This document shows, one piece after another, positions 24,619 through 33,761 of a stretch of 64,000 bases of DNA; the first letter of the stretch is position 1; every line of letters starts with the position of its first letter. This DNA comes from Brachyspira sp. SAP_772 (GTDB taxonomy: Bacteria > Spirochaetota > Brachyspiria > Brachyspirales > Brachyspiraceae). The stretch is from NCBI RefSeq assembly GCF_009755885.1, contig NZ_VYIX01000001.1:328418-392417 (forward strand), read 5' to 3'. The translations under genes and the position numbers were made by a program. The notes beneath the pieces were generated by a model. The model was not told where the DNA came from. It saw only the letters and a list, made by a program, of their open reading frames with translations, and searched no databases.

Positions 24619-26391
24619 TTATAAAATTTTTGTTATTAATAGAGTAATATCATCGAATTGAGCTACTTCATCTCTAAATCTAACAGTTTCTTCTACTATA
24701 TCATCTAATAACTCTTTAGGATTATCATAATCATTTTTAAGGAGTTCTTTTAATCTGTCATCCCCATAAACTTCATCAAATCTATTGAAAGTATCCGTTA
24801 CCCCATCTGTAAATAATACTATTGTGTCATTTGATGAATATTGTATTTTTTTATTTGTATAGACTTCATTTTTTACAAACCCTAATGGCTTGCCTCTTGC
24901 ATGCATCTCTTCTATTATTTTTGTATTTGAAGCTTCATCTTTTTTTACTAAATATTGAGGTAAATGTCCAGCATTAGAGTAAGTTAAAGTTTTATTTTTT
25001 GTATCTATTACAACTAAAAAACAAGTAACAAACATACCATTTTTAGAGTCTTCATAAATATGTTTGTTAGTATATTTTAATATGCTTGCTGGGTCATCTA
25101 TTTGGGAGAAATAAACTCTTAATATAGACCTTGTCATAGTCATAAAGAAGCCAGCACCTAATCCCTTACCTGATACATCTGCTATTATAAGTGCATATTT
25201 AGTGCTGCTTATTTTTATATAATCATAGAAGTCACCGCCTACGTTTTTACTTGGTATGCTTATTGCTGCAATATCAAATAAATTATCATTTGGAAAATGT
25301 GTTGGAAGTACGCTTTTTTGTAATTGCTCTGTATAATTAATTTCTTCTGTGAGAGATTCTTTTATTTTAGACTCTTCAGATAAAAGTACATGCATATAAT
25401 TTTCACCTAATTGCTGAGCTAACATTTCTAATAGCATTAAATTACTTAAATTATATGCTTTATTAATATTTCTTTCTGTAGCACATAAAAAGCCTATTAT
25501 TTCATCTTTTATAATTATAGGTGCTGCTATAAAACTCTCTCTTGTATATCTTAAAGATTTATTTGGTTTGAATCTAGGATCTTTAGAAACATTAACAGAA
25601 TAAACAGGCTTTTTGGTTTTTAATATTTCAGCAAGTACATTGTCTTCTACTGTAACTATTCCATATTGCAAAATATCTTCATCAATACCTATTGCAGCTT
25701 TAAATTTGAACACTCCATTTTCTTTTAATATCACGGAAACTCTATGTGCCTCAAAAGCTTCGCATACTATACTAATATTATTGTTTAATATTTCATCAAC
25801 TGTTTCGCATCTGTTTATAGATATAGACATTTCGTATAAAGCAGCAACTTCATATGCTCTTGACTGTGCTTTTTCATAATTAATTTTGTTTACCAGAGAT
25901 AAAGATACTAAATGAGCAAAAGATTTCATTAATACAGTATCTTTTTCTACAAAATTACCATTTTTTTTATTTAACAGAAATATTGCCGCTATGTTTCTTT
26001 TTCTAATCTTTACTGGTACGAATAATATATTTTTTAATTCATCTCCTATCATATCCTTCAAAGGAACAAAATTTGAATCTTCTTTTGGATCATTAGAATA
26101 TAATGAAGCTGATGTAGTGTATGCTCTTACTGCTATGGGTTTATCATTATCTATAATAGAGCCAAAACATTTATCGCCTAATGGACCTATAGACATTTCA
26201 AAGTTTAGATTACTTAATTCTTGATCTACTAAATATAAAAGAATTGTATTTGAATTCATAACGGCTTTTATTTCAGATATAAGAGTTATTAAACTTTCTT
26301 CATAGTCTGTTGAAGAATTCATTTTTTTTATAATATTAGAAAACACCTCAATTTGTTTTTCGGGGTTATCCATTATTTCATTTATATTCAC
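24619..26391 (-). CDS. GAF-GAF-PP2C (SpoIIE/RsbU-type) serine phosphatase
   Basis: 590 residues. Two GAF-like sensory regions (about 20-165 and 185-330) precede a short helical linker and a PP2C-like phosphatase domain. The metal-ligand motifs are intact: GGDFYDY, ADVSGKGLGAGFF, FTDGVTD and FDDITLL. RsbU-type enzymes dephosphorylate an anti-sigma antagonist (STAS protein), linking a signal to sigma-factor or partner switching. No such partner is encoded nearby. The start is GTG at 26391 with GAGG 6 nt upstream. Confidence 0.88.
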   Translation of the reverse strand: MNINEIMDNPEKQIEVFSNIIKKMNSSTDYEESLITLISEIKAVMNSNTILLYLVDQELSNLNFEMSIGPLGDKCFGSIIDNDKPIAVRAYTTSASLYSNDPKEDSNFVPLKDMIGDELKNILFVPVKIRKRNIAAIFLLNKKNGNFVEKDTVLMKSFAHLVSLSLVNKINYEKAQSRAYEVAALYEMSISINRCETVDEILNNNISIVCEAFEAHRVSVILKENGVFKFKAAIGIDEDILQYGIVTVEDNVLAEILKTKKPVYSVNVSKDPRFKPNKSLRYTRESFIAAPIIIKDEIIGFLCATERNINKAYNLSNLMLLEMLAQQLGENYMHVLLSEESKIKESLTEEINYTEQLQKSVLPTHFPNDNLFDIAAISIPSKNVGGDFYDYIKISSTKYALIIADVSGKGLGAGFFMTMTRSILRVYFSQIDDPASILKYTNKHIYEDSKNGMFVTCFLVVIDTKNKTLTYSNAGHLPQYLVKKDEASNTKIIEEMHARGKPLGFVKNEVYTNKKIQYSSNDTIVLFTDGVTDTFNRFDEVYGDDRLKELLKNDYDNPKELLDDIVEETVRFRDEVAQFDDITLLITKIL

Positions 26392-26490
26392 TAAAACCTC
26401 TACATATTAGCCGTTTGAAATAGATTATATCATAGTGTATTTTATAGTCAATAATATAATATATTTTTATAAAATAATAATTTTGAAAAA

Positions 26491-26519
26491 TTGACATTAC
26501 TTAATATTTATTGTAATAT
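26491..26519 (+). promoter_or_regulatory. Promoter of the repeat-leader/acyltransferase operon
   Basis: A perfect TTGACA at 26491-26496 and TAATAT at 26514-26519, spacer 17 bp. The predicted start near 26526 leaves about 20 nt before the leader ATG, enough for the GGAG site at 26535-26538. Confidence 0.7.
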
Positions 26520-26545
26520 ATATAATAAAAAATCGGAGTAATCTT

Positions 26546-26674
26546 ATGCACCGCACCGCACCGCACCGCACCGCACCGCACCGCACCGCACCGCACCGCA
26601 CCGCACCGCACCGCACTAAACTATTTATCTTTAAGTTTTCTATATATAACTTTTATAACATGGAGCTATACTAA
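26546..26674 (+). CDS. 42-residue leader peptide ORF made of (HRTAP) repeats, coupled to the acyltransferase
   Basis: GGAG at 26535-26538 lies 7 nt before ATG 26546. The pentanucleotide tract encodes four HRTAP units plus HRT. The frame then stays open through KLFIFKFS..NMELY and stops at TAA 26672-26674, which shares its last base with the ATG of the MBOAT gene (TAATG). This is the arrangement of translational coupling. Because the tract unit is 5 bp, a change of one unit shifts the frame. One unit fewer stops at 26617, 55 nt short of the gene; one unit more stops at 26682, just inside it. The ORF is inferred; no homologue is recognised. Confidence 0.65.
   Translation: MHRTAPHRTAPHRTAPHRTAPHRTKLFIFKFSIYNFYNMELY
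26549..26616 (+). repeat. Pentanucleotide tandem repeat, (CACCG)x13 plus CAC
   Basis: Thirteen perfect copies of CACCG at 26549-26613, followed by CAC. It is GC rich in an AT-rich gap and has no imperfect copy, as expected of a tract kept uniform by slipped-strand mispairing. It lies inside a short ORF between a promoter and the MBOAT gene. Confidence 0.97.
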
Positions 26675-28086
26675 TGCTTTTTAGTTCCATGATTTTTTTG
26701 TGGCTTTTTCTGCCAGTAGTTTTTATATCATATTATTTAATTAAAAAAGAATATAGAAATGTTTTATTATTAATAGCTAGTATTATATTTTATGCTTGGG
26801 GCGGAGTTAGTTATACTCTGATAATGTTCTCTTCTATAGTCATTAACTATATTTTTGCATTATTAATAGATAGGGCTATAGAAGAAAATAATAAATCAAA
26901 AAAGAAAATATATTTAGCGTTATGTATAGTAATTAATTTATTAATATTAGGTTATTTCAAATATACCGATTTTGCTATATCAATAATTAATTCAATATCA
27001 AAAAAAGAATTAATTTCATTAAAAAATATAATTTTACCAATAGGAATATCATTTTATACTTTTCAGGCTCTATCTTATGTAATAGATGTTTATAGAGAAC
27101 ATAATAAGGCACAGAAAAATATTATTAATTTGGCATTATATATATCCTTTTTTCCGCAGTTAATAGCAGGTCCAATAGTTAAGTATCATGATATAGACAC
27201 TCAAATAACGAATAGAACCGAGAGTTTAGAAAATATAAGTTATGGTATAAAGCGTTTTATATATGGACTATCTAAGAAAGTAATACTTGCTAATATGTTT
27301 GCTTTATCTTGTGATGAAATATTAAAACAGCCCGTAGGAGAAATAGGTACAGCATTAGCTTGGGTGGCAGCAATTCTTTACACACTTCAGATATATTATG
27401 ATTTTTCAGGTTATTCTGATATGGCAATAGGACTAGGGCATATGTTTGGGTTTAAGTTCTTAGAAAACTTTAATTATCCTTATATATCTAAATCAGTTCA
27501 AGAGTTTTGGAGGAGATGGCATATATCATTATCTACATGGTTTAAAGAATATTTATATATACCTTCAGGTGGAAACAGAAAAGGGAAATATTTTACTTAT
27601 CTTAATTTATTTATAGTCTTTTTTGCTACAGGCTTATGGCATGGAGCTAGTTTCAATTTTATTCTTTGGGGCTTATGGCATGGATTTTTCTTGATAATAG
27701 AGCGAATATTTTTAGGTAAGTTGTTGGAAAAGAATAAATTAAAATTTTTAAATCATATTTATGTAATATTCGTATTTTTATTAGGTTGGGTATTATTTAG
27801 AGCAAATAATTTAACTCATGCATTAGATTTATACAAATTAATGTTTAGTTATCATGAAAGTATTTATACAGTAAGATATTTCTTTTATCCTCAGACTTTA
27901 GTTTGTTTTATATTTGGAATATTATTCAGCGGATTATTTCAAAGTTTATTTCCAAAAGTTAAAGAAGCTATATTTTCAAGCAGAGTTTATATATTAGAAA
28001 GTATAATTCAATTCATACTATTGTTTATTTGTATTATGTATTTAGTTAATGGTACTTACAATCCATTTATTTACTTCAGATTTTAA
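26674..28086 (+). CDS. MBOAT family O-acyltransferase (AlgI/PatA/DltB-like)
   Basis: 470 residues, about ten membrane segments. The MBOAT hallmark is FFATGLWHGASFNFILWGLWHG with the catalytic-type His323. Upstream lie SFYTFQALSYVIDVYRE and the FWRRWHISLSTWFKEYLYIPSGG motif of the AlgI branch. It transfers an acyl group, usually acetyl, across the membrane to an envelope polysaccharide or lipooligosaccharide, normally with an SGNH partner such as the next gene. TGGAG at 26661-26665 gives it its own ribosome site, and its start also overlaps the stop of the repeat leader. Confidence 0.92.
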   Translation: MLFSSMIFLWLFLPVVFISYYLIKKEYRNVLLLIASIIFYAWGGVSYTLIMFSSIVINYIFALLIDRAIEENNKSKKKIYLALCIVINLLILGYFKYTDFAISIINSISKKELISLKNIILPIGISFYTFQALSYVIDVYREHNKAQKNIINLALYISFFPQLIAGPIVKYHDIDTQITNRTESLENISYGIKRFIYGLSKKVILANMFALSCDEILKQPVGEIGTALAWVAAILYTLQIYYDFSGYSDMAIGLGHMFGFKFLENFNYPYISKSVQEFWRRWHISLSTWFKEYLYIPSGGNRKGKYFTYLNLFIVFFATGLWHGASFNFILWGLWHGFFLIIERIFLGKLLEKNKLKFLNHIYVIFVFLLGWVLFRANNLTHALDLYKLMFSYHESIYTVRYFFYPQTLVCFIFGILFSGLFQSLFPKVKEAIFSSRVYILESIIQFILLFICIMYLVNGTYNPFIYFRF

Positions 28087-28101
28087 TGGTAGGTGTAATT
28101 T

Positions 28102-30432
28102 ATGAAAAATAAAACTTTATTTAATAAAACGTTATTATATGTTGGTGTTATTTTTATCATAGTGACCTCAATTTTATTTGTTTTAGGAAGTATTAATAGA
28201 GAAGGTTATTTATCAAACTTATCTATTAATGCAGATAATACTTTAAAATTAAATAATATTGATGTAGAAAATACAAAAAAATTATTTTCTTCAGATAACA
28301 AATTAGATTATTCATCCTTAACTAATTATATTTTTACAAATTCCAATATTTCAAAATATAGTTACAATTTTAGAATTAGTTATTATAGTAAAGTCTTTGG
28401 AAATAGTGATATATACGGAGTTTATTTAAATACTAATAGTTTACCTGATTATATATCTGATGTAAAATTTCAAGAAAAAGGAAGTCCTTTTGGTATTTTA
28501 ATTAGCTCTAAAATAATAGAACAAGAAAAAATAGATAATATAGAATATTCTTTATATATTAAATTTTTTAACTTATTAATATACCTAATATTATTTTATA
28601 TATTTATTATTTTATTATATGTTTTTAGAAAAATTTTATTGAATATTATTTATTACATTTTTTTTCTTCTTAGAAAAGATAGAAAATTGTTGCTAATATA
28701 TTTGATAATATATGTATCTTTAATATTTTTTTTATTTATTTTAGGTAATCTTAATAGAGAAGGTTATTTATCAAACTTATCTATTAATGCAGATAATACT
28801 TTAAAATTAAATAATATTGATGTAGAAAATACAAAAAAATTATTTTCTTCAAATAACAAATTAGATTATTCATCCTTAACTAATTATATTTTTACAAATT
28901 CCAATATTTCAAAATATAGTTATAATTTTAGAATTAGTTATTATAGTAAAATTTTTGGAAATAGTGATATATATGGAGTTTATTTAAATACTAATAGTTT
29001 GCCTGATTATATAGAAGAAATAAAAATGAATAATAATTTTGGTACTCCATTTGGTAATTTAGTTAGCTTAGAGAAATTAAAAGAAAAAAAAATAGATGAT
29101 ATTTATTATAAATTAAAACTTAAATTTAATTTTTTAAGCATATTATTTTTATCTTGTATATTATTAATTATTTTTATTTATGAATTAAAAAATATTATAT
29201 TGAAATTTTTAAATTTTTTATTATGTAAAATTATTAATATAAATAGATATGTTTATATATTATTTATATTTTTATGTTTTTTGATTATGCCTAATATAAT
29301 GTATTTTTTATTTGGAAATTATTTTGATAAGACTAATTATGAGAATAGATTAAAGGCTCAAAAACCTACCTTATCTATAAATAATGTAAGTAAATATCCT
29401 AATGAATATGAAAAATATTTTAATGATTATATTCCTTTTAGAAGTGAGATTATAAAATTAAAAAATTTGATAGATTTATTTGTATTTAGAAATTTTATAT
29501 CAGATAAAACATTATTAGGAAAAAATAAATGGTTATTTTTTAAGAGAGATAATAAAATAGACAATACTATTGAAAATTATATTGGAATTAAAAACTTCTA
29601 TTTTTCTGATATGGAATTAGAAATTTGTAAAAATAATTTACTAAATTTTAGAGATGAACTTAAAAAAAGAAATATAGATTTTATATTAATGATATGTCCT
29701 GATAAAGAGTTCATATATACAAATTATATGCCTAATTATGTAAAAAGAAAAACAAATATAAATTCGACAGATGAATTTGTAAAGTATATGATAAAAAATA
29801 CAGATATAAAAATTGTATATCCTAAAGATGAATTAATAAAATATAAAGATAAATATCAATTATATTATCGCTATGATCATCATTGGAATGCATTAGGTGG
29901 ATATATTGCGTATTCAAAATTAATGAAATTATTTTCTATTAATGTTAGAAATTTAGAAAGTTTAAATATTTTAAGTTTTGATTATAAATATAGAAATTCT
30001 TGGTTACATTATAGTCAAACAGCAAATTATGTAGCTTTGTCAAGTTTAGAATATTTTAAAGATGATAAAATTTTTGTAATAAGTAATTTTATAAGTAAAA
30101 AAACAAATATTATGATTAATAACCTTATGAGTTGGGGAATAAATTATTATTATACAAATAAATATTCAATGAATACTAACAATATATATATTATTAGAGA
30201 TTCTATGGCCCAAGAATTATTAGATTATATATTTCCTTCATTTAATGAAACAAGTGTTATATCTGTTAATAAATTTGATATAGTTGATATAGTTGATAAA
30301 AAACCAAATGTTATAATATTTGAAACAATTGAAAGATTTTTAAAAAGTAGATTATTGAATGTGTTGCCAAATTATAAAATAGAAGAAATCAATAAGGATT
30401 TAAAAACTAATTTTATTGAAGTAAATAATTAA
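28102..30432 (+). CDS. Membrane-anchored AlgX/AlgJ-type SGNH (DHHW) protein with duplicated domain
   Basis: 776 residues. Layout: membrane helix (about 8-27), extracytoplasmic domain (28-150), two helices (about 152-215), a second copy of the same domain (214-330), two more helices (about 345-405), then a C-terminal SGNH domain. That domain has YDHHWN (Asp592, His593, His594) and the serine in IRDSMAQ (Ser701), as in AlgJ/AlgX acetyltransferases. The duplicated blocks 28181-28455 and 28739-29013 differ at only about a dozen bases. Probably the partner that moves acyl groups from the MBOAT protein to the glycan. TAGGTG precedes the ATG. Confidence 0.8.
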   Translation: MKNKTLFNKTLLYVGVIFIIVTSILFVLGSINREGYLSNLSINADNTLKLNNIDVENTKKLFSSDNKLDYSSLTNYIFTNSNISKYSYNFRISYYSKVFGNSDIYGVYLNTNSLPDYISDVKFQEKGSPFGILISSKIIEQEKIDNIEYSLYIKFFNLLIYLILFYIFIILLYVFRKILLNIIYYIFFLLRKDRKLLLIYLIIYVSLIFFLFILGNLNREGYLSNLSINADNTLKLNNIDVENTKKLFSSNNKLDYSSLTNYIFTNSNISKYSYNFRISYYSKIFGNSDIYGVYLNTNSLPDYIEEIKMNNNFGTPFGNLVSLEKLKEKKIDDIYYKLKLKFNFLSILFLSCILLIIFIYELKNIILKFLNFLLCKIININRYVYILFIFLCFLIMPNIMYFLFGNYFDKTNYENRLKAQKPTLSINNVSKYPNEYEKYFNDYIPFRSEIIKLKNLIDLFVFRNFISDKTLLGKNKWLFFKRDNKIDNTIENYIGIKNFYFSDMELEICKNNLLNFRDELKKRNIDFILMICPDKEFIYTNYMPNYVKRKTNINSTDEFVKYMIKNTDIKIVYPKDELIKYKDKYQLYYRYDHHWNALGGYIAYSKLMKLFSINVRNLESLNILSFDYKYRNSWLHYSQTANYVALSSLEYFKDDKIFVISNFISKKTNIMINNLMSWGINYYYTNKYSMNTNNIYIIRDSMAQELLDYIFPSFNETSVISVNKFDIVDIVDKKPNVIIFETIERFLKSRLLNVLPNYKIEEINKDLKTNFIEVNN
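28181..28455 (+). repeat. Intragenic duplication, copy 1
   Basis: About 275 bp nearly identical to 28739-29013, offset exactly 558 bp (186 codons), so the reading frame is kept. Flanks are diverged. Confidence 0.92.
28739..29013 (+). repeat. Intragenic duplication, copy 2
   Basis: Partner of 28181-28455. Differences include the first residues (GN for GS), one SSN for SSD, and IF for VF, plus a few silent changes. Confidence 0.92.
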
Positions 30433-30433
30433 A

Positions 30434-30462
30434 TTGACAAATATTTTTATGTTTAGTATTAT
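30434..30462 (+). promoter_or_regulatory. Promoter for rsgA
   Basis: TTGACA at 30434-30439 and TATTAT at 30457-30462, spacer 17 bp. Confidence 0.7.
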
Positions 30463-30498
30463 ATAGTTATATATATTATTACAATGAGGATAAAAATA

Positions 30499-31602
30499 TT
30501 GAAAATAAAAGATATTGGCTTTGATGAATATTTTGAGAAGTTAGCTTTATCAGCTTTGAAGGTTAATAGTTTAGAAGAGATTAATAACGAAGAACTTATG
30601 CCTGCTAGGGTGATAAGAATTAATAAAAGATACTATACACTTTTTTCTGATGATGGAGAGTTTTTAGCGAGAATAAAAGGGAAGATTAGATATAACTCTG
30701 AAGTGCAAAGCGAGCTTCCTGTGGTTGGTGATTGGGTGCTAATGAAAAAGTCTGATAACAATGCTTTTATTGATACTATACTCACTAGAAAAAATATATT
30801 ATACAGAAAAGCTAATATTAAAAAAAATGATATTCAAGCTATAGTAAGCAATATTGATTATGCTTTTATTATAGTTGGTATTGATAATGAGATGCCGATG
30901 TCAGCTATTGCTAGATATTTGTCTGTAGTTCACACTTCTGGAATTAAACCAATAATTGCAATAAGTAAAATAGATTTATATGAAGAAGCTGAATATAAGG
31001 AATTGTTGGCTACTATAAAAGAAACTTATCCTAATGAAACAGCTTTTGCCTACAGTTCAAAAACAGGAAAGAATACTGATACATTTTTGAAATATATTAA
31101 GAAGGATACTTCATCAGTTTTTATAGGGGCATCAGGAGCTGGTAAATCTACTATTATTAATTATCTTTTGAAAGACGAGAAGATGAAAACTCAAGAGGTC
31201 AGAGAGTATGATTTTAAAGGAATGCATACCACAACACATAGAGAGCTTTTAGTATTAGATAGCGGTGGGGTTGTGATAGATACTCCGGGTTTAAGAAATT
31301 TAGGGCTTTGGGAAGATGATAAAGGCATAAAGAAAACTTTTGAAGATTTAGAAGAGTATGCTAAAAAATGTAAGTTTAAAGATTGTACGCATCAGCATGA
31401 ACCAGATTGTTATATATTGGAGCTTCTTGAAAATGATGAAATACCTTATGAGAGATATGATGCTTATATAACACTTCTAAATGAAAACAGAGAATTGCAA
31501 AAAAGTTCTATAGAGATAAAGAAAGACAGAAAAATGGCATTAAAGAAAATCACAAAGCATAGGAATAATTATAAGAAAATAAATGTAAAGAATAAAAAAT
31601 AG
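30499..31602 (+). CDS. rsgA: Ribosome small subunit-dependent GTPase A
   Basis: Circularly permuted GTPase that helps mature the 30S subunit. An N-terminal OB-fold (about 40-100, GDWVLM) precedes the G domain, whose motifs come in the order G4 (SKID), G1 (GASGAGKST), then G3 (DTPGL). A C-terminal zinc-binding segment carries C-x4-C-x-H-x5-C (CKFKDCTHQHEPDC). The TTG at 30499 is preferred as start: GAGGA at 30486-30490 lies 8 nt upstream. The in-frame ATG at 30484 has no ribosome site and overlaps that GAGGA. The protein is then 367 residues. Confidence 0.92.
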   Translation: MKIKDIGFDEYFEKLALSALKVNSLEEINNEELMPARVIRINKRYYTLFSDDGEFLARIKGKIRYNSEVQSELPVVGDWVLMKKSDNNAFIDTILTRKNILYRKANIKKNDIQAIVSNIDYAFIIVGIDNEMPMSAIARYLSVVHTSGIKPIIAISKIDLYEEAEYKELLATIKETYPNETAFAYSSKTGKNTDTFLKYIKKDTSSVFIGASGAGKSTIINYLLKDEKMKTQEVREYDFKGMHTTTHRELLVLDSGGVVIDTPGLRNLGLWEDDKGIKKTFEDLEEYAKKCKFKDCTHQHEPDCYILELLENDEIPYERYDAYITLLNENRELQKSSIEIKKDRKMALKKITKHRNNYKKINVKNKK

Positions 31603-31825
31603 TTTATCCATAGCAATAATAAAAAACGGCATTAAAAAATTTATTTTGTATTTTTTAATTTGTATTTGCTTATTAGATTTTTTAGCTGCCCCCCAAGTTT
31701 TATTTAAATTTATTTATTTCTCACCGCACGAAAAATATTATTATATTATTAAGTATATTTATTAATTGCAATTATTATATATATAAAGTCTTTATTACCG
31801 TGCGTTATAAAAAAATTAAATAATT

Positions 31826-31854
31826 TTGATTTTATATTAAGAATATAATATAAT
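31826..31854 (+). promoter_or_regulatory. Promoter of the Imm17-like gene, predicts a leaderless transcript
   Basis: TTGATT at 31826-31831 and TATAAT at 31849-31854, spacer 17 bp. The predicted start is within 2-3 nt of the ATG at 31863. Confidence 0.55.
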
Positions 31855-31862
31855 AGTTAATT

Positions 31863-32099
31863 ATGGAGAGTTTAATAAATTATATAAAAAAAAATCCTCA
31901 TTTATTTGGAATATTAGCAGGACTTCTATTTCTTTTGGCTGCAATTTTTAATTGGAAGTGGCTTTTGGAACCTGCTGGTTCAAGATTTATGATGTTTATA
32001 TATGAAATGTTGGGGAAGAGTGGTGTTAGAATAGTTACTGGTATTATAGGAGCTATAATAATAATATGCTTTATAATGGATTGGATAATAAGAAAATGA
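31863..32099 (+). CDS. Small two-helix membrane protein, Imm17-like
   Basis: 78 residues with two membrane helices (about 14-31 and 56-74) joined by a loop with NWKWLLEPAGSRF and GKSGVRIVTG. The NW-x-W followed by a GR-type stretch before helix 2 resembles Imm17 immunity proteins of polymorphic toxin systems; this is a motif-level resemblance only. No toxin gene is adjacent. No ribosome site precedes the ATG and the promoter lies directly before it, so translation is probably leaderless. It stands alone between rsgA and the ankyrin genes. Confidence 0.6.
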   Translation: MESLINYIKKNPHLFGILAGLLFLLAAIFNWKWLLEPAGSRFMMFIYEMLGKSGVRIVTGIIGAIIIICFIMDWIIRK

Positions 32100-32393: not shown

Positions 32394-32843
32394 ATGAGAA
32401 ATTTTAAAATATTAATATTGTCATCTGTTTTGTTTTTAATGTTTTCTCTAATTGCATTTTCAAAAAGCAATATAGCAATTGTTGATGCTGCTGGCAGAGG
32501 GGATATCAATCAAGTGAAAGCATTAATAGATAGCGGAGCTAATATAAATCAGCAAGATAGAATAGGAGAAACTGCCTTGATAGAAGCTACCGAAGGCGGA
32601 CATATAGAAGTTGTAAAATTGTTGATAGCAAATAATGCAAAATTAAATCTCAAAAGCAAATGGGGCAGAACTGCATTGATGAGGGCTTCTTTTAAAGGTT
32701 ATGCTAACATAGTAAAAGTACTTGTAGAAGCGGGAGCAGATTTAAATTTAAAAGATAATAGAGGAAGAACTGCATTAACTTATGCCAATCAAAAAGGACA
32801 TCAAAATATAATTAATATTTTAAAAGCAGCAGGTGCAAAATAA
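32394..32843 (+). CDS. Secreted ankyrin-repeat protein 1
   Basis: 149 residues. An N-terminal signal peptide (about 1-24, ending IAFSKS) is followed by four ankyrin repeats with the usual G-x-T-AL-x-A and V-x-LL/LIxxGA blocks, e.g. GETALIEATEGGH and GRTALMRASFKGY. It should act in the periplasm or outside the cell, binding a protein partner. It is the first of three related genes in line, spaced about 25-30 nt, with one promoter. AAAGGAGG gives a strong ribosome site. Confidence 0.85.
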   Translation: MRNFKILILSSVLFLMFSLIAFSKSNIAIVDAAGRGDINQVKALIDSGANINQQDRIGETALIEATEGGHIEVVKLLIANNAKLNLKSKWGRTALMRASFKGYANIVKVLVEAGADLNLKDNRGRTALTYANQKGHQNIINILKAAGAK

Positions 32844-32867
32844 AATTTTAATAAAGGAGATTTGTGT

Positions 32868-33296
32868 ATGAAAAAAATTATATTTTTGATAATGGTTTTT
32901 AGTTTATCTTTGTTTGCTCAAAGAACTCCATTAATGGAAGCTTTAGAGAGAAAAGACACTAAAAGGGCTATAGAACTTATAAACTCGGGTGTTGATCTTA
33001 ATACAAGAGACAGAAGAGGTGAAACTCCATTAATAGAGGCAGCAGAAGAAGGGCTTCCTGAAGTAGTAAGATTATTGATAAGTAAAAAAGTAAATTTAAA
33101 TGATGTTAATAACAATAAAAGAACAGCATTAATGAGAGCTTCTAGCAGAGGACATGCTCAAATAGTTTCTATGCTTATAGAGGCAGGTGCAAATATTAAT
33201 TTAAAAGATAAATACGGAAAAACGGCATTGTCTTATGCAACTCAAAGAGGACATCAAAATATAGTTAAAATATTGAAATCAGCAGGTGCTAAATAA
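32868..33296 (+). CDS. Secreted ankyrin-repeat protein 2
   Basis: 142 residues from ATG 32868, chosen because AAGGAGA lies 7 nt upstream. Signal peptide of about 18 residues ending SLSLFAQ, then four ankyrin repeats. It is more similar to the third gene than to the first (shared RTPLMEALERKDTKRAIELI-type start and KYGKTALSYATQRGHQNIVKIL end), suggesting stepwise tandem duplication. Confidence 0.85.
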   Translation: MKKIIFLIMVFSLSLFAQRTPLMEALERKDTKRAIELINSGVDLNTRDRRGETPLIEAAEEGLPEVVRLLISKKVNLNDVNNNKRTALMRASSRGHAQIVSMLIEAGANINLKDKYGKTALSYATQRGHQNIVKILKSAGAK

Positions 33297-33326
33297 AATT
33301 AGTTTATTTAATAAGGAATATTTTTG

Positions 33327-33761
33327 ATGAAAAAGATTATATTTTTATTTGTTATTGTCAGTGCAGTTTTATTAGCACAGCAGAAAAGAACACCTATAAT
33401 GGATGCTTTAGAAAGAAGAGACATAAAAAAAGCAATAGAGCTTATAAACTCAGGAGTTGATATTAATGCAAAAGACAGAATGGGTGAAACTCCTCTAATA
33501 GAAGCTTCAGAAGAAGGACTCACAGAAGTTGTTAGAGTTTTAATAGAAAAGAAAGCAGATTTAAATGCAGTAAATGTTAGAAATAGAACAGCCTTAAGCA
33601 GGGCTTCATATAAAGGTCATACTAAAATAGTTCGCATGTTGGTGGATGCTGGTGCTGATGTTAATATAAAAGATAAATATGGAAAAACTGCATTAAACTA
33701 TGCAACTCAGAGAGGACATCAAAATATAGTAAAAATATTGAAAGCAGCAGGTGCTAAATAG
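33327..33761 (+). CDS. Secreted ankyrin-repeat protein 3
   Basis: 144 residues from ATG 33327, with AAGGA 9 nt upstream. Signal peptide ending VLLAQQ, four ankyrin repeats, C-terminus KAAGAK as in the other two. Clear paralogue of the preceding gene. The three probably form one transcript; the binding partners are unknown. Confidence 0.85.
   Translation: MKKIIFLFVIVSAVLLAQQKRTPIMDALERRDIKKAIELINSGVDINAKDRMGETPLIEASEEGLTEVVRVLIEKKADLNAVNVRNRTALSRASYKGHTKIVRMLVDAGADVNIKDKYGKTALNYATQRGHQNIVKILKAAGAK

Follow-up and report, generated by a model that had tools for sequence, protein, structure and literature searches.

The locus lies in the window, by which we mean the whole stretch of 64,000 nucleotides that was analysed (G+C 27.7%). 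At its centre is a short leader ORF that carries a perfect pentanucleotide tract and ends on the start codon of an MBOAT O-acyltransferase gene. Its features, all on the forward strand, are as follows.

26491..26519, forward strand: promoter-like TTGACA-17-TAATAT, recognised from the consensus match alone (-35 at 26491-26496, -10 at 26514-26519)
26535..26538, forward strand: Shine-Dalgarno (SD)-like GGAG of the leader, from sequence
26546..26674, forward strand: leader ORF, 42 amino acids at 13 units, from the ATG at 26546 to the TAATG end, from sequence and orthologues
26549..26613, forward strand: 13 perfect CACCG units, from sequence
26614..26671, forward strand: tail between tract and gene, in which frame 1 relative to MBOAT is open throughout
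26617..26619, forward strand: TAA at which the leader stops with 12 or 15 units (predicted OFF); the same stop closes the MBOAT frame upstream
26659..26668, forward strand: 5' arm of a predicted hairpin, containing the MBOAT SD GGAG at 26662-26665, from folding
26674..28086, forward strand: MBOAT O-acyltransferase, 470 amino acids (PF03062, E 8.7e-33)
26682..26684, forward strand: TAG within MBOAT at which the leader stops with 11 or 14 units
26682..26691, forward strand: 3' arm of the predicted hairpin, MBOAT codons 3-6, from folding
28102..30432, forward strand: AlgX-like SGNH protein, 776 amino acids (PF16822, E 1.7e-11)

The promoter-like site, the GGAG, the ATG, the 13 perfect repeats and the TAATG overlap with MBOAT had been described in an initial annotation of this DNA, and all were verified base by base; the leader TAA (26672-26674) shares its last base with the MBOAT ATG at 26674. 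The promoter-like site matches the consensus at 10 of 12 positions in a scan in which such sites are commonplace here (68 found vs a shuffle mean of 56.8). The AlgX-like gene starts 15 nt after MBOAT and its product is likely the partner of MBOAT in one operon; together the two look like a surface-polymer O-acylation pair. The N-terminal half of the AlgX-like protein contains a near-identical stretch that occurs twice (NREGYLSNLSINADNTLKLNNIDVENTKKLFSS...), and further downstream, at 32667-33760, a 465-bp unit is repeated in tandem (2.4 copies with 76% matches).

The CACCG tract stands out from its surroundings. Perfect pentanucleotide tracts of at least 20 nt number three in the contig C1 (1,203,954 bases), and runs of at least three consecutive CACCG units occur in 13 of the 61 genomes searched, 13 of 26 from the genus Brachyspira and none of 35 others; this scarcity in C1 and the confinement of CACCG runs to the genus place the tract beyond chance. 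Four of the five codons that it spells are rare here (CGC 0.56, CCG 1.70, CAC 1.73 and ACC 1.89 per 1000).

Repeat number shifts the frame in which the leader is read, so that three phases lead to three different stops. At the 13 units present the leader stops at 26672, on the MBOAT start; with 12 it would stop at 26617, which leaves 57 nt to the A of the MBOAT ATG, and with 14 at 26682. Simple arithmetic thus bears out the stops proposed initially for 12, 13 and 14 units. The further proposal, that slippage would switch coupling on and off, is supported by a kept frame and scattered phases among relatives, described below, with the qualification that 14 units would bring the leader ribosome to MBOAT just as 13 do, so that OFF would be confined here to one phase of three.

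Orthologues were sought in 41 genomes (the window's own, 24 of the genus and 16 others), and MBOAT orthologues with at least 84.9% identity were found in 14 of them, including one of 93% identity in Brachyspira sp. G79. A fifteenth, in G041, was assigned by its start and length, and a split MBOAT copy in G010 (74-75% identity) was left out of the set. In all 15, MBOAT is preceded by a leader ATG with a pentanucleotide tract behind it, and this ATG has a recognisable SD in 14 (the exception is G021). The repeat unit itself differs (CACCG, CACAG, CATCG, AACCG and, in G021, CAATA), as does its number, from 5.0 to 16.4 units. A uniform repeat number over many isolates and reads, as well as loss of the leader start or frame in relatives, had been named beforehand as observations that would speak against a switch; in this between-species comparison the repeat number varies, and start and frame are kept in 15 of 15.

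The most telling feature of these orthologues is the frame that runs from tract to gene. Over the 15 tails, frame 1 relative to MBOAT contains no stop in 389 codons, set against 50 stops in 385 codons in frame 0 and 45 in 395 in frame 2, and relative to the MBOAT ATG its end lies at -5, -2 or +16 in every orthologue, +16 being the case in 11. The tails range from 46 to 231 nt, which corresponds to open frames of 13 to 77 codons. Control-gene upstream regions, of which 197 to 448 were available per tail length, predict an open frame 1 in 1.5 of 15, and the 231-nt open tail of G012 is matched by none of 197 control genes. A lenient shuffle test discriminates poorly for MBOAT, its null being 0.10-0.80 in each case, and the argument therefore rests on the fixed-frame count and the control genes. 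Orthologous tails share stretches, so the 15 do not represent 15 independent events.

The phase in which the leader enters this tail is scattered: it falls in frame 1 in six orthologues, in frame 2 in six and in frame 0 in three. As the tracts now stand, the leader reaches MBOAT in eight (G000, G024, G011, G009, G002, G008, G023 and G041) and stops 64-171 nt short in seven (G015, G003, G019, G004, G016, G012 and G021). The number of phases that come within 25 nt of the MBOAT start is one in eight orthologues and two in seven, the window among the latter. The sequences thus establish the tract, the leader frame with its alternative stops, the open frame kept by all 15 orthologues and the scatter of phases, and an open frame that is kept while the leader phase scatters would be the expected trace of a slipping switch.

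By eye, the leader start of G041 (L269) is like that of the window and its tail like that of G015 and others, as if the two halves had been recombined at the tract.

Folding adds an element that was absent from the earlier description, a predicted hairpin over the MBOAT ribosome-binding site. In the window's leader RNA the fold is a 10-pair stem that includes the MBOAT SD and is closed by a loop containing the ATG; the leader as a whole folds no better than its shuffles (z -0.01). The MBOAT SD of the window is among the least accessible 0.3% of 640 SD-bearing genes in C1, and against the same 640 genes its percentile lies between 0 and 1.9% across 14 orthologues. All 10 stem pairs can form in 11 orthologues and 9 of 10 in the other four. 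Among the 15 no compensatory stem changes were seen, all changes being one-sided exchanges of the G-C/G-U type. Set against variants in which the first codons were replaced at random by synonyms, SD accessibility falls within the lowest 8% in 14 of 15 orthologues; energy is weaker against this null, with 12 of 15 in the lowest 12.3% and G023, G012 and G024 at 18%, 26% and 34%. G012 is also where the tract has decayed to five units, the SD reads GGAA and the hairpin is loose (SD unpaired 0.37), with frame and leader kept. The predicted SD-hiding hairpin is likely to explain why coupling matters at this gene.

A second MBOAT family, about 41% identical, allows a comparison, since it occurs both with and without a tract. 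Eight tract-bearing copies, with AAACC-type units, have predicted SD-hiding hairpins of -13.9 to -18.0 kcal/mol and one frame ending at -2 or +8, and 19 tract-less copies fold at -1.2 to -6.0 kcal/mol. The energies differ with a Mann-Whitney p of 6e-5 over the 27 copies, a value that overstates their independence: the tract-bearing copies all begin MLFNSTEF (8/8) and the tract-less ones all MLFNS[TRK]DF (19/19), so that the split follows subfamilies and amounts to about one evolutionary contrast. The 27 were picked by their start motif, and one copy on contig C169 of G002 (L353) and the second copy of G014 (L356) were dropped because they did not match it. In tract-less copies GAG alone stands where the SD would be, and a few of them hide it in weak folds (unpaired 0.008 in L033, 0.054 in L349). 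An SD-bearing leader ATG was seen before none of the second-family tracts. The window's own genome carries one copy of each sort (L358; C1:1143385).

We propose the following mechanism for the MBOAT locus. Slippage would change the number of CACCG repeats and thereby the frame of the leader ribosome. A ribosome that stops just past the tract would leave the MBOAT SD folded (OFF), whereas one that runs on to -2 or +8, or to +16 in most relatives, would unfold the stem; with the hairpin open, termination would be followed by reinitiation at MBOAT (ON). We infer that the tract changes within a population, with ON at lengths that reach the start and OFF at those that stop early, and that surface O-acylation would then differ from cell to cell. 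That the tract is a slippage-set switch for MBOAT, in which repeat number fixes the leader frame and only a gene-reaching frame melts the predicted SD hairpin, has in our estimate a probability of roughly 70%. This confidence is held down by the subfamily confounding in the second family and by the one-sidedness of the stem changes, and the presence of an SD of MBOAT's own counts against the switch.

Several other explanations must be weighed against this mechanism. An unlikely one, though the best of them, is phase-dependent polarity, in which the tract is a putative Rho-loading site, an early leader stop ends transcription before MBOAT and the hairpin is secondary. It would yield the same ON and OFF phases as coupling, and CACCG is indeed C-rich and G-poor in a window of low G+C; however, the orthologous units CAATA (G021) and AACCG are poorer in C, and the SD hairpin is left unexplained. 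Intrinsic termination in the tail was considered as well and rejected, as no terminator was found in 13 of the 14 MBOAT tails scanned (that of G012 lay outside the scan); G021 has one, at -6.9 kcal/mol. A scan of 26200-32000 in the window likewise found no terminators.

We give still less weight to the leader as a small functional peptide whose tail frame is kept for its own sequence, with control of MBOAT incidental. One open frame over so many codons would suit this reading, as would the frame end, MELLCYLA[LP], which is alike in 10 of 15 orthologues, though this end overlaps both the hairpin and MBOAT. The tails nevertheless vary widely in length and sequence, and in 9 of 15 the leader as it now stands either leaves the tail untranslated or would read it in a different frame. 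The leader gave no candidate in a protein search, and its identity with a known protein was rejected on that basis, with the proviso that gene callers often skip such ORFs. Fusion of the leader to the N terminus of MBOAT, the arrangement of an in-gene SSR, was rejected because a stop between tract and gene closes the MBOAT frame in 15 of 15.

The sign of the switch could also be reversed, a leader ribosome over the MBOAT start blocking it, such that the gene-reaching phase is OFF and the early stop ON. The +16 ends would carry a ribosome across both SD and ATG in the 11 orthologues that have them, yet the frame ends near the MBOAT start and not deep inside the gene; moreover, if the predicted hairpin hides the SD, a gene whose leader stops early could not be entered, and we regard this reversal as very improbable. 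That the tract is a neutral 5' untranslated repeat or acts through promoter spacing, its frame being irrelevant, fits the varying tract length between species but is barely credible given the kept open frame, the kept leader ATG and units that change at one place, all unexpected on this account, and a tract that starts about 29 nt past the putative -10 box and not between -35 and -10, on which ground an SSR of the promoter-spacing kind was rejected.

The slippage-set switch proposed for MBOAT may have counterparts elsewhere in the genus. A degenerate unit, CANMG, recurs five times in a row in 23 of 26 Brachyspira genomes, and a survey of tracts gave 79 scorable tract/strand cases, in which families recur and identical repeats were counted once. 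Downstream genes were scored if their start codon was ATG or GTG and followed one of nine SD motifs, a requirement by which G012 (SD GGAA) and others dropped out, and tracts cut by contig ends fell outside the survey. An SD-bearing leader start accompanies 47 tracts. In 26 of these a non-gene frame ends no more than 25 nt from the gene start, against 9.4 expected from shuffles; eight are fused, that is, open straight into the gene, and 13 are neither. With the 13 MBOAT orthologues among them excluded, the count is 13 of 34 vs about 4.2 expected. Where there is no SD-bearing leader start, a frame ends near the gene in 12 of 32 (4.1 expected), two are fused and 18 are neither.

The proteins behind these tracts include a GT61 glycosyltransferase, a radical-SAM protein, the second MBOAT and lipoprotein-like sequences, together with a weak, below-cutoff match to a DXD-glycosyltransferase and, behind a tract with no recognised leader start, a dTDP-4-dehydrorhamnose 3,5-epimerase. 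Tracts inside genes exist too, as in an Eco57I-type enzyme (L311). SD-hiding folds are predicted in three of four GT61-like cases, of which one was Pfam-scanned and the rest were recognised by N-terminal likeness; they are weaker in two L315 genes and absent from most others. At some lipoprotein loci the stretch from tract to gene contains a terminator-like hairpin (-4.3 to -5.9 kcal/mol), and strong hairpins of this type are present at two radical-SAM loci (-16.4 and -19.8), all these energies being given with no control; a frame reaches the hairpin at the second radical-SAM locus and none does at the first.

From this we tentatively draw a model of a genus-wide Brachyspira switch, hitherto undescribed, to which we give somewhat less than an even chance. 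A slippable leader ORF would direct an in-phase ribosome to open an RNA lock before a surface gene; the lock would be an SD-hiding hairpin for MBOAT and some GT61-type genes, and a terminator-like hairpin for some lipoprotein, radical-SAM and GT8-like genes, where the outcome would be phase-variable attenuation. The unit would turn over, with tract, frame and lock kept. That the leader ribosome is what opens either kind of lock we infer from these arrangements.

Other repeats in these genomes were noted in passing. At L261:14145-14207 (G000 C1:1134145), 15.8 copies of CAAG lie 79 nt before a gene that is GT8-like by its N terminus, with a strong terminator-like hairpin between the two and no leader SD; the leader frames end at -78, -49 and -38, and phase-variable attenuation is possible there. 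On the minus strand, L230:11682-11838 (G000 C1:511682) has 31 copies of CATCG in a leader before a lipoprotein-like gene, where one frame passes a weak terminator-like hairpin to -29 and the present leader phase stops at -139, and L257:9411-9528 (G000 C1:1049411) has 16.9 copies of a CCAAGCT-type heptanucleotide before another lipoprotein-like gene, with one frame open to -29. Pentanucleotide tracts also occur at the 3' end of long ORFs, at L244:3756-3798 (G000 C1:783756) and at L286, L287, L288 and L295 in G021; in these four the stops after a CAGAG-type tract lie at 0, 7 and 32 nt, as though slippage selected the C-terminus. At L289-L292 and L296, also in G021, the frame of an AAGCA tract is continuous with lipoprotein-like genes, ahead of the signal-peptide start. 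Several tracts (L272, L273, L274, L275, L277 and L322) lie at or near contig ends, and draft assemblies therefore probably lose such loci.

Searches for phase-variable genes usually target repeats inside genes or promoters, and tracts in unannotated leader ORFs would escape them. If the proposed switch is real, a change by one repeat, gained or lost, would probably determine if a ribosome arrives at the gene, a possible on/off switch in single cells. It would offer a general route to phase variation that leaves the encoded protein untouched, and a set of switchable surface genes would be expected in Brachyspira.

Phase variation and coupling are treated as separate classes of frame transition in the accessible part of one account (PMC3711429), and in that of a 2025 review of phase variation (PMC11868660) the words 'leader', 'untranslated', 'coupling' and 'pentanucleotide' never occur. 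On/off switching of Vsp proteins is presented in general terms, with Mycoplasma as the example, in the available passages of PMC5415613, which describe no such tracts. In the open-licence literature, as represented by partial texts, there was no recognisable report of repeat-based phase variation in Brachyspira, and titles and abstract beginnings gave no match for the general mechanism of a switch by leader tract.

The nearest precedent is the lex2 locus of Haemophilus influenzae, where translation of lex2B is coupled to that of lex2A, a small ORF ahead of it; we know of no report of an SD-hiding hairpin there. According to excerpts of the respective papers, lex2A of H. influenzae carries a CAAG repeat tract (PMC2651432) and lex2B, the other gene of the locus, is a glycosyltransferase (PMC3116884). 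The likeness is one of anatomy, drawn from descriptions, namely a repeat tract in one gene of a locus with a glycan-modifying partner; the lex2 repeat, however, is a tetranucleotide in another phylum, whereas that of Brachyspira is a pentanucleotide. In Helicobacter pylori the tlpB leader contains a G-repeat on which the sRNA RepG acts, as far as the available text describes it (PMC8295292). A length-variable repeat in an mRNA leader is common to both, but the reader of the tlpB repeat is an sRNA, whereas in Brachyspira it would be the leader reading frame.

Two further mechanisms complete the comparison. In-gene SSR phase variation is known, for example, from the mod and lic genes of H. influenzae. 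With this class the locus shares a perfect non-triplet tract that shifts the frame of a surface-related gene: CACCG is repeated in tandem 13 times without interruption, its length is not a multiple of three, and between species repeat number differs, with leader phases distributed 6/6/3. It departs from this class in that the tract sits in a separate leader. RBS-hairpin translational coupling is known from RNA-phage and ribosomal-protein operons, and shared with it are an upstream stop at the downstream start (-2 in the window) and a sequestered RBS, found in silico in 14 of 15 orthologues, that of G012 being loose. The difference is that in Brachyspira slippage in the tract of the upstream ORF would make the coupling itself switchable. 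Taken as a whole, the proposed switch would combine SSR phase variation with RBS-hairpin coupling.
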